Below, piece by piece: positions 1 to 3,460 of a DNA stretch of 64,000 nt. Both the position numbers and the translations under genes were made by a program. Each line of letters begins with the position of its first letter. Within the stretch, counting starts at the first letter, position 1. This DNA comes from Rheinheimera sp. (GTDB taxonomy: Bacteria > Pseudomonadota > Gammaproteobacteria > Enterobacterales > Alteromonadaceae), in NCBI GenBank assembly GCA_008015325.1, contig SSFI01000009.1, positions 21,578 to 85,577 on the forward strand, read 5' to 3'. The notes beneath the pieces are model-generated. The model was not told the origin of the DNA, did no database searches, and was given only the letters and a program-made list of their open reading frames with translations.

Positions 1-179
1 GGTCGAATTGCTCAAAGATGAACCGTTAACTGACCGGGCCACGCTGAAACAACAGGTATTTGAATATATTGAAGTTGATTACAACAAAACCAGACGGCAT
101 AGTGCTATTGGCTATCTCAGCCCAGAAAACTATGAGCTAAAGAAAACTGCTTAGTGGCGTGTCCAGTGTTGGCGGATCA
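1..179 (+). mobile_element. Right end of an IS3-family insertion sequence: C-terminus of the DDE transposase (frame at 2..154, ...YNKTRRHSAIGYLSPENYELKKTA*) plus terminal sequence TGGCGTGTCCAGTGTTGGCGGATCA
   Basis: Translated tail matches the IS3 orfB C-terminal motif (DYNKTRRHSAIGYLSPxxYE). The next ~25 bp ends ...GGATCA, i.e. TGATCC... on the other strand, as expected for an IS3 terminus. Confidence 0.85.
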
Positions 180-773
180 GATCAGGGTGCTGTACTCGTT
201 TTGAGAATAGGCTGGAGTCGACTTGCCTCCACTCGAAAAGGAAGGTACGTCTCGCAGCCATTGTTCATCGTAAACCCTAGCACGCATTAACATGGTTGTT
301 ATACAAACTTTTAATATCGCCGCGGTATTTTCTTTGATGCCAATGTCTTCTTCATGAGCATAGAGGTAGAGAAAGGCCAGCGGCTTTTTGGCAAGCGCTA
401 TACGTCTATGTAGCTCACCGTTCTGCCCAACGTAACTTAGGAAACCTTCTTTTGAAAAGGGATCGATGCTGCTATTCTCACAATAACGGCAATATTTTTG
501 AAACGTTAGATACATATTATATTCTGCATCCACCGAGGCACTATCCTTTAGTCGCTCACTTAATGCTCTCGCAAGGCGGATAACATACTTTCGACGCTGC
601 TCACTATCATTCAGTAATGGCGAAAAATCAAACACAACAACCGTTTTGCTTGCGATGGTGGCCTTTTGCTTTAGCAAACCAATATCAATGACTTTCCGTC
701 CCCTTGGGACAATCGAATTATCCTTTAAAACATCTGGATTTAATGGGCTTTTTCGAAGTCCTGCCATCCTCAC
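177..773 (-). pseudogene. Second integrase / site-specific recombinase gene, 3'-truncated by the IS3 element; only the N-terminal (core-binding-like) part remains (GmtZ-like is a possibility)
   Basis: Coding-like 198-aa N-terminal segment 13 bp downstream of the tyrosine recombinase gene on the same strand. Its stop codon (TGA, 177-179) is the terminal TGA of the IS end. Confidence 0.6.
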
Positions 774-785
774 ATTCCTTGATTT

Positions 786-2300
786 TCAATTCTTATTCAG
801 GGCGCGTTGTGCTTCTTTATTTTTCCTGGATGCGTACATCAACCTAGCGACACGGTCGTTCATGTAATTGATGTACTTCTGGGTCGTACTGGTATCTGCA
901 TGCCCCATGAGATCTGCCAACTCGCTGAGGAGCAAATCAAAGACCATCTGTCTACGAGTCGCTTCTCTCTTGAGCCAATGTGTAGCGAATGTGGAACGCA
1001 AATCTTGCATTCGGTAGTACCACTGTGGATGTGTCTCTTGGATATGTGAGCGAATGGTGCTCAGTTTCTTTTGCAGGCTTTTATCAGAGTACGGTAATCC
1101 GCTTGCATTGACGAATAGATACTGTACATCCTGACTCTGGTGCAGGCTTTCTTCAAACCTCTCAGTTTCAAATGAGTCCTCTGTTCCGCCATTGATGTAA
1201 TGAACTTTTAATCTTGCTCGTATGTCCTTTTCATGCTGCTTTTTAAGATTCTTGACTCGCTTCGTTAACAGTTTTTTTCTCTGCTCGCTATGCAGGTACT
1301 CATTAAGCTCAAGCAACAATTCATACGGAATAGATATATTGCGTTGCTTGTCAAACTTGGTGCGACATCCGTTAAGTGGTCCAATCCTAAAAGGAATACT
1401 TTCAGCATCGCTCGTCGGATGGTGAATGCCGATAGCAGGGAACGTTACAAGCTCTTTCACACGCAATCCCGTTTCTACAGCTAAACGATACATTAGAGAA
1501 TACGTTTTATTTTGCCCTCGACGTGGCCACGACTTAATGTGGTCAAGGAAGATGTCCTTATGATTTTCAATCATTGGTTTTAGTAATTGGTGAGGCTGAC
1601 TGCTCTGAACTTTAGGAAAGCGTTTTTTTAGGTCAGTTGTCTGTACGTAAATAACCTTGTTTCTTATTTTTGTGTGAGCAAGTATGTCGTGCTGATTTAT
1701 TTTCTCAGATTTACGTACTGTGACTTCTTCAATTGCGAAAGGTTTTCGGTCTCGTGTAATAAAGAAAAGTCCGCTTCTGTGGAGCCACTTATAAAAACTT
1801 ATTACTACATCTGTATATGTCATAGCTGTCGATAAACTATAACCGCTCGGATTCTTCAATACCTGTCCCGTTGCCGGGCAAATCTGCTTTATATTATCAA
1901 GTAAGTAATCTACGTATAGCCAAACAATACCCTCTTTTGGATCGCTAGTAAGAGACTGGTAGCTTTTGGGTTGCCCATTATGATTTTTGTTATATGCAGA
2001 AATGAAGTTCTGAAATGACAACAAAGCATTTGCTTCGGGTGATGTGCTTTTAGCACCTTCTTTAAGTCGATAGTGAAGATATTGATTGTGTGGTTCGAGC
2101 GGTAATCCGTTAGGCTGGACAATAATAGAAAGCTCACTCGGCTCAGAATTGCTTTTTTTTATGGCTAGTTCAACCTCGCCAGTCTCTGAGTTGGTTGACA
2201 TACTCAAATCTGGTTCAGCTAGTAATCTTATTCTTTTTACTTGGAAACCATCTTTCTTCATAAGACTGAATTCTTTCTTACTGAAAGTTGATTTAAGCAT
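786..2300 (-). CDS. Tyrosine recombinase / phage-type integrase (possible GmtY-like)
   Basis: C-terminal catalytic motifs: ETGLRVKELVTF (R), QDLRSTFATHW (R..H), LADLMGHADTSTTQKYINYM (GH...Y). Confidence 0.88.
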   Translation of the reverse strand: MLKSTFSKKEFSLMKKDGFQVKRIRLLAEPDLSMSTNSETGEVELAIKKSNSEPSELSIIVQPNGLPLEPHNQYLHYRLKEGAKSTSPEANALLSFQNFISAYNKNHNGQPKSYQSLTSDPKEGIVWLYVDYLLDNIKQICPATGQVLKNPSGYSLSTAMTYTDVVISFYKWLHRSGLFFITRDRKPFAIEEVTVRKSEKINQHDILAHTKIRNKVIYVQTTDLKKRFPKVQSSQPHQLLKPMIENHKDIFLDHIKSWPRRGQNKTYSLMYRLAVETGLRVKELVTFPAIGIHHPTSDAESIPFRIGPLNGCRTKFDKQRNISIPYELLLELNEYLHSEQRKKLLTKRVKNLKKQHEKDIRARLKVHYINGGTEDSFETERFEESLHQSQDVQYLFVNASGLPYSDKSLQKKLSTIRSHIQETHPQWYYRMQDLRSTFATHWLKREATRRQMVFDLLLSELADLMGHADTSTTQKYINYMNDRVARLMYASRKNKEAQRALNKN

Positions 2301-2357
2301 TAGTCATTTTTTTGATTTCGTCAAGCGCCAACTTTAGAAGTCATAAAAAAGAGCCAA

Positions 2358-2777
2358 CTATAACTTACCTTCGACCAGCTCTTTCAGCTCGGCCGGATTC
2401 ATCGTTTTTAAACCCAGCGTCTGCGCGGCATTGCCGATGGATTCGACAGTGGGTTTGACCCGTACGTAAAATTCCGCCATCACGTCGACCCGCATCCGGT
2501 CACGGGTGATCAGCGCCTGTTCGGCGGCACGGCGCACTTCAAGACGCAGCGTATTCATATTAACCGGAATAATTTCGTGCAGTACCGGCAGCACAATAGC
2601 GCCACCATTCATAATGACTTTTTCCCCACGAAAACCGGTGCGGACAAAAGATACTTCTTTGGTGGCACGTTTATACAGCCGGGCCAAAATCAAACCCAGC
2701 ACCAGCAAGGCGCCTAATAACACCGCAACCAGGGTCAATACATCGACAGAGACCGTTACCGGCGTCACTTCATTCAT
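2358..2777 (-). pseudogene. Flotillin (YqiK-like) gene truncated after 139 aa
   Basis: N-terminal TM plus SPFH start (VSFVRTGFRGEKVIMNGGAIVLPVLHEIIPVNMNTLRLEV...NPAELKELVEGK) stops abruptly at the island boundary. Full flotillins are over 400 aa. Confidence 0.85.
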
Positions 2778-3460
2778 GGTTTCACTTCCTTTTGCTCTGA
2801 GGGGGATAAAGATTCGGGCGCTTTACAGGCCAGATAACGGCCGTGGGCATAACTGAGTAACAACACGGCACTGCCCTGCTGCAATTCTGACTGGTCATCC
2901 GGTTCCACCCGGATATAGTGCAGGTAACCATGTTGGTCCATCACGCGGGCTTCGGCGCTGTAACCGCTGCGGGCATTGCCCAGGGTTAAAATCGCCACCC
3001 GGCCGAGCAGATCGTCCTGGCTGACTGCCGTCGTTTCATCTTTGGGCAACAAGCGCGCCAGCCAGCCGCCGGTCAGACGCAGCTGCGGCAAGGTCGCCGG
3101 CAGCACCAGCAACACAGCGAGCCAGCCCGGTAGTAAGACCTGACTCAGCTGAAAAATGCCCCACTGCAGCAGCAAACCGGTTAAACCAAAACAGCACAGC
3201 CACAGCACCAGCAGCATCAATACCGGTACTTCACCAAAGCGTAACCAGCTGAATAACCGTGCCAGGCTGCTGTCTTCATCGACGGCTACTTCGCTGTGTG
3301 GATTGAGATCAGGCTCCGGCAACACTTGCTCCAGCGCATCCGCCATGCTCTGGCCAAACAACAGTGCCAGCAGTTCCAGTGCGCCAATGCCGAACATCAG
3401 CACAAGCGCCACGCTGAACCATTGGGTTTGTGGTAACCAGAACAAACTCATTGCGGACAT
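2774..3460 (-). CDS. YqiJ-like OB-fold membrane protein, partner of flotillin
   Basis: 228 aa with TM segments and C-terminal OB-like region. Overlaps the flotillin start by 4 bp, as in yqiJ-yqiK operons. Confidence 0.75.
   Translation of the reverse strand: MSAMSLFWLPQTQWFSVALVLMFGIGALELLALLFGQSMADALEQVLPEPDLNPHSEVAVDEDSSLARLFSWLRFGEVPVLMLLVLWLCCFGLTGLLLQWGIFQLSQVLLPGWLAVLLVLPATLPQLRLTGGWLARLLPKDETTAVSQDDLLGRVAILTLGNARSGYSAEARVMDQHGYLHYIRVEPDDQSELQQGSAVLLLSYAHGRYLACKAPESLSPSEQKEVKP

Follow-up and report, generated by a model that had tools for sequence, protein, structure and literature searches.

The window, that is, the whole 64,000-nucleotide stretch of Rheinheimera sp. DNA that was analyzed, contains near its left end a minus-strand open reading frame of 139 amino acids (2358-2777) that corresponds to the first 138 residues, and no more, of a YqiK-type flotillin. 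The frame terminates in ELVEGK-L-stop (...NPAELKELVEGKL*); its product has the transmembrane start but only half of Band_7 (positions 17-92 of the 176 in Pfam PF01145). The host DNA ends at 2363, and most of the last codon as well as the stop codon (TTA TAG) are supplied by the end of an adjacent element, just inside of which the GC content changes from ~0.56 in the host flank to ~0.39. An initial annotation had placed the flotillin gene next to PspA-like and YqiJ-like genes; the YqiJ-like neighbor was confirmed by its domains, but the PspA-like assignment found no Pfam support. The features of the locus, including those located on contig C15 beyond the window and on contig C109, are the following.

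1-183, plus strand: end of an IS3-family insertion in tfp; the insertion occupies C15:20520-21760 and has the direct repeat AGGGT on both sides.
184-773, minus strand: first fragment of tfp (residues 1-198 of Colwellia Tfp), identified by comparison with Colwellia Tfp.
786-2300, minus strand: intA homolog coding for a tyrosine recombinase of 504 amino acids; complete frame, with Q432 replacing the H of RHRY.
2340-2362, minus strand: motif C, the left end of the element, TATAGTTGGCTCTTTTTTATGAC, located by the end-pattern search.
2363-2368, minus strand: attL 6-bp spacer GTAAGT, the same 6 bp as in the flotillin gene of several relatives with an empty site (GAAG-GTAAGT-TTGT).
2363-2777, minus strand: 5′ portion of the interrupted yqiK-type flotillin gene, made up of host DNA through the end of the 6-bp crossover region; the stop of the reading frame is at 2358.
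2774-3460, minus strand: yqiJ-type gene (YqiJ_N and YqiJ_OB), intact, directly upstream of the flotillin gene, overlapping it on the same strand.
C15:22344-21757, 20486-19164 and 16585-16352: the three pieces of tfp, the last two beyond the window.
C109:24392-24415: motif C′, the inverted partner of C, TATAATTGGCATACTACTGATGAC, adjoining the spacer TTGCGT, beyond which lies the 3′ half of the flotillin gene.

The 3′ half of the gene, which the initial annotation had proposed to look for, was located on contig C109 of this genome (L006:8029-9402, minus strand), 0.68 kb from the contig end, with the element's end sequence beside it as an inverted copy. It starts with FVDALRSV... (FVDALRSVAAEMAMEELHEK; FVDALRSVAAEM), lacks the start region, and includes Band_7 positions 96-145 followed by the Flot domain (PF15975, E 4e-39). 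A search of the genome for Band_7 identified five places: two adjacent genes on contig C102, one on contig C91, the window fragment, and on C109 an incomplete match, which covers the portion of the domain absent from the window fragment. Scripted joining of both flanks and halves produced a single open frame of 590 amino acids.

Relatives of the same genus and order possess an uninterrupted flotillin that reads ELVEGKFVDALR[SA]VAAEM across the junction; at the nucleotide level, the empty sites read GAAG-GTAAGT-TTGT[TC]GATG in the direction of the flotillin gene, with synonymous changes in some of them. The two halves map end to end with no gap in one of these relatives (L152, the first half to 7622 and the second from 7620), and likewise in three others (L153-L155). 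A sample of 395 genomes of the order gave 43 other matched flotillins; apart from one that is cut by a contig end, all of them match up to residue 138 in an uninterrupted frame, and none was found broken at the same site. The reading frame itself, the half on C109 and the intact relatives thus agree with the earlier proposal that the flotillin frame is split at 2358 beside recombinase-side DNA and that the insertion took place inside a conserved coding motif; the island-free relatives carry the full-length flotillin instead of the 139-residue frame.

The 5′ stump preserves the membrane start together with one half of SPFH, but neither the coiled coil nor the Flot domain, and a genome search found no second yqiK-type copy in the assembly. 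Considering the stump of 139 residues, the orphan 3′ half and the lack of another copy of this type, the function of this flotillin has most likely been lost in the host. A flotillin of this type was found in 5 of 22 genomes of the same genus, the present one included. Since most of the sampled genomes of the genus do without it, its loss is evidently tolerated and is not surprising in this group.

Strand-biased circularizing integrative elements (SEs) carry the genes intA, tfp, intB and srap at their left end and are bounded by imperfect inverted ends (PMC10214605), with inverted terminal repeats of 13-19 bp in the founding members (PMC10214605, PMC9345347). Upon insertion, the 6 bp of the target are left at attL and those of the donor at attR (PMC10214605); this anatomy and the 6-bp rule are described in PMC10214605 and PMC9345347. 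At the left border studied here attL is GAAG-GTAAGT-TATAGTTGGC, with the window reading GAAG-GTAAGT-TATAGTTGGCTCTTTTTTATGAC, and at the right border attR is GCCAATTATA-TTGCGT-TTGTTGATG, with C109 reading GTCATCAGTAGTATGCCAATTATA-TTGCGT-TTGTTGATG. The attL spacer is the empty-site sequence of several relatives and the attR spacer differs from it, and this pair, one from the target and one foreign, fits the published rule. The boundaries of the 6 bp were set by that rule together with the edge of the inverted repeat, the sequence by itself leaving a 3-bp (GTT) ambiguity. The duplicated att core that had been anticipated was looked for and is absent: attL and attR have only GTT in common.

Both borders share the inverted pattern TATA[GA]TTGGC N(8-9) ATGAC. 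In the 3.86-Mb assembly the pattern TATA[GA]TTGGC...ATGAC occurs only at the two breakpoints, with ~0.06 occurrences expected from base counts, a result that speaks of uniqueness and not of independent discovery because the pattern was derived from the two ends themselves. In their first 10 nucleotides, C and C′ agree at 9, and among 10-mers drawn from the element and paired at random, 0.02% agree as well as this; over the full length the likeness is modest, the score of the 26-nucleotide alignment being reached by 1.3% of random pairs. The 0.67 kb inside the right end (C109:24392-25060; L006:9393-10061) are mostly non-coding, with a short piece resembling IS110 where the contig ends.

The intA gene starts ~40 bp inward of the left end motif. 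A tblastn comparison matched its product to the IntA protein of pSEA1 from Vibrio 04Ya108, the plasmid that carries SE-6283, with 31.6% identity over 98% of the length. Alignments with SE IntA proteins, that of SE-6283 among them, span more than 90% of the protein; identity is 52% to the IntA of an element in Colwellia sp. MB3u-41 and 32-36% to those of known SEs. The catalytic residues are R280, Q432, R435 and Y476, and the position of Q432 is occupied by H in nine aligned SE IntA proteins, so that the RHRY motif of SEs is incomplete. No solved structure matched IntA by sequence. The tfp gene follows directly after intA and is present in three pieces, 39-51% identical to Colwellia Tfp, with the last ~87 residues gone. 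In addition to the IS3-family insertion, a second gap in tfp is filled by a gene pair resembling istA and istB of an IS21-family element (named by eye), and the broken end of tfp is adjoined by a remnant of an IS256-family-like transposase (C15:15800-16320, L007; read by eye).

Neither of the remaining two SE genes was detected in the assembly, in whose gap both could sit. For intB, a profile built from three SEs and the Colwellia protein gave no match; the silence of the profile is informative because both Colwellia and other genomes of the order gave strong matches to it. For srap, which codes for a short protein, there was no match with a three-SE profile used without a positive control or with the Colwellia protein. 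Farther inside the border, outside the window, C15:1890-15232 (L007) includes genes for ATPgrasp_Ter, PRTase_2/TRSP, StiP with PELOTA, C-C_Bond_Lyase, VWA, TerD and a protein kinase. By their domain content these form a Ter-associated (tellurite-like stress) set and are the putative cargo of the SE. A DDE transposase gene lies close to the end of contig C15. The element is at least ~24.6 kb long, the stretch from C15:1 to C109:25060 being unassembled; no read linkage between the two contigs and no overlap of their ends were found.

The element resembles the founding SEs, SE-6283 and SE-6945 of Vibrio alfacsensis (PMC9345347, PMC10214605), in that intA adjoins attL, tfp comes second, the ends are imperfectly inverted and the spacers are 6 bp as published. 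Near the left end of SE-6283 the TTTTTTATGAC motif is likewise present, and this element can occupy a conserved coding gene, bcp. In contrast to these two elements, the one described here has flotillin instead of bcp as its target, an IntA only ~32-33% identical to theirs with Q in place of H, a broken tfp, no detected intB or srap, and a Ter-associated gene set inside its border. For both IntA (52%) and Tfp (39-51%, depending on the piece) the closest relative is the unnamed SE found here in Colwellia sp. MB3u-41 (NZ_JACGUT010000078.1), which, unlike the present element, has a complete intA-tfp-intB-srap operon and the catalytic H; its insertion point follows ...NNEKELL of a MoxR-like AAA ATPase gene.

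Taken together, these data make it very probable that a mobile element of the recently described SE kind inserted in the flotillin gene and later lost its mobility machinery, the present copy being probably stuck. We infer the route of insertion from the mechanism published for SEs. IntA, Tfp, IntB and Srap would have joined a circular copy (C′-6 bp-C) to the flotillin target, so that the target's GTAAGT would stay beside C at attL and the circle's TTGCGT would be placed beside C′ at attR. At the locus that gave rise to the circle, TTGCGT would have stood next to the left end, and this donor site was a different one because the flotillin codons at this point (GGN AAR TTY) cannot give TTGCGT. 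Later, copies of IS3 and IS21 interrupted tfp, and the end of tfp, intB and srap would have been lost. Since searches for intB, srap and a full RHRY motif were negative, the element was classified as an SE remnant rather than a complete SE. The absence of the two genes and the replacement of the catalytic H in IntA suggest that the present copy is probably a decayed, immobile SE. In SE-6283, knockout of intA, intB or srap stops the formation of the circle, and intact SEs leave no empty site (PMC10214605). An excised circle and a restored flotillin gene are not expected here because the recombination genes are incomplete.

Other tyrosine-recombinase elements have a comparable plan. GInt islands (ginABCD) and Tn554 likewise have several recombinases placed at one end, inverted ends that match imperfectly, and target specificity, and Tn554 shares the 6-bp footprint. 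That the element belongs to one of these kinds, or is an ICE or IME, is nevertheless quite improbable, since IntA and the Tfp fragments both match proteins of known SEs, SE-6283 included. Furthermore, Tn554 does not have Tfp, and no relaxase or conjugation genes were seen among the larger open reading frames listed for C15:1-23900, some of which were checked by profile. GInt proteins are not detectably similar to those of SEs according to the published blastp and blastn comparison of their genes (PMC10214605), and the separation from GInts follows that comparison.

A slightly smaller chance is given to a full and still mobile SE whose intB and srap lie in the gap of an assembly of 139 contigs, between C15:1 and C109:25060. 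SE genes run unbroken from intA through tfp and intB to srap; here tfp is cut twice, its end is missing and the IS256-like remnant follows, genome completeness was estimated at 99.99%, and IntA has Q for the catalytic H. The least probable explanation is that a chromosomal rearrangement or an assembly error broke the flotillin gene and that the recombinase is nearby by coincidence. The halves are indeed on different contigs, the region is rich in insertion sequences, and the relatives that were compared do not share the gene order past flotillin and the gene upstream of it. However, each of the broken ends borders exactly on a copy of the end sequence, the two copies being inverted and the host sequence preserved to the base, and intA begins right inside the left one. 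Insertion of an SE followed by decay remains the preferred explanation.

A scan of GTDB with the IntA alignment identified 34 loci, the nearest being that of Colwellia sp. MB3u-41; the same scan with the single IntA protein gave no matches. The MoxR-like ATPase gene that harbors the complete Colwellia operon (L115; named from its sequence) is apparently a further SE target gene, and no attR or right end of that SE was found within 40 kb. Four SEs of the order sample (L107, L109, L110 and L111) are each located in the peroxiredoxin gene bcp at ...WGEKKF, the gene being named from its sequence and from the published target of SE-6283. A motif common to bcp (GAG-AAG-AAA-TTT) and flotillin (GAA-GGT-AAG-TTT) was considered and dropped because the crossover seems to be at a different offset. 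Flotillin was not found at SE borders among the IntA-bearing loci of the order sample, the plasmid matches examined or the GTDB-scan loci examined. No paper was found that describes insertion of an SE in flotillin or yqiK, in a search that did not extend to the supplementary lists of targets in PMC10214605. The SE of Alteromonas macleodii pKD02 (L048:10337-14342) has its tfp interrupted by an insertion sequence (IS66), and insertion into tfp may therefore be recurrent.

These results add flotillin to the few known gene targets of SEs and provide ends at base level for a divergent, decayed relative of these elements, in which the right-hand 6 bp (TTGCGT) are a record of its origin at another site. 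It is conceivable, although we regard it as a doubtful proposal, that elements akin to this one and to that of Colwellia form a branch of SEs that switched to new conserved coding motifs, such as flotillin EGKFV and NNEKEL of the MoxR-like ATPase, and that is able to transport large cargo for stress responses, the Ter-associated gene set being an example. For the host, insertion of an SE accounts for a gene loss that automated annotation would present as two unrelated fragments.
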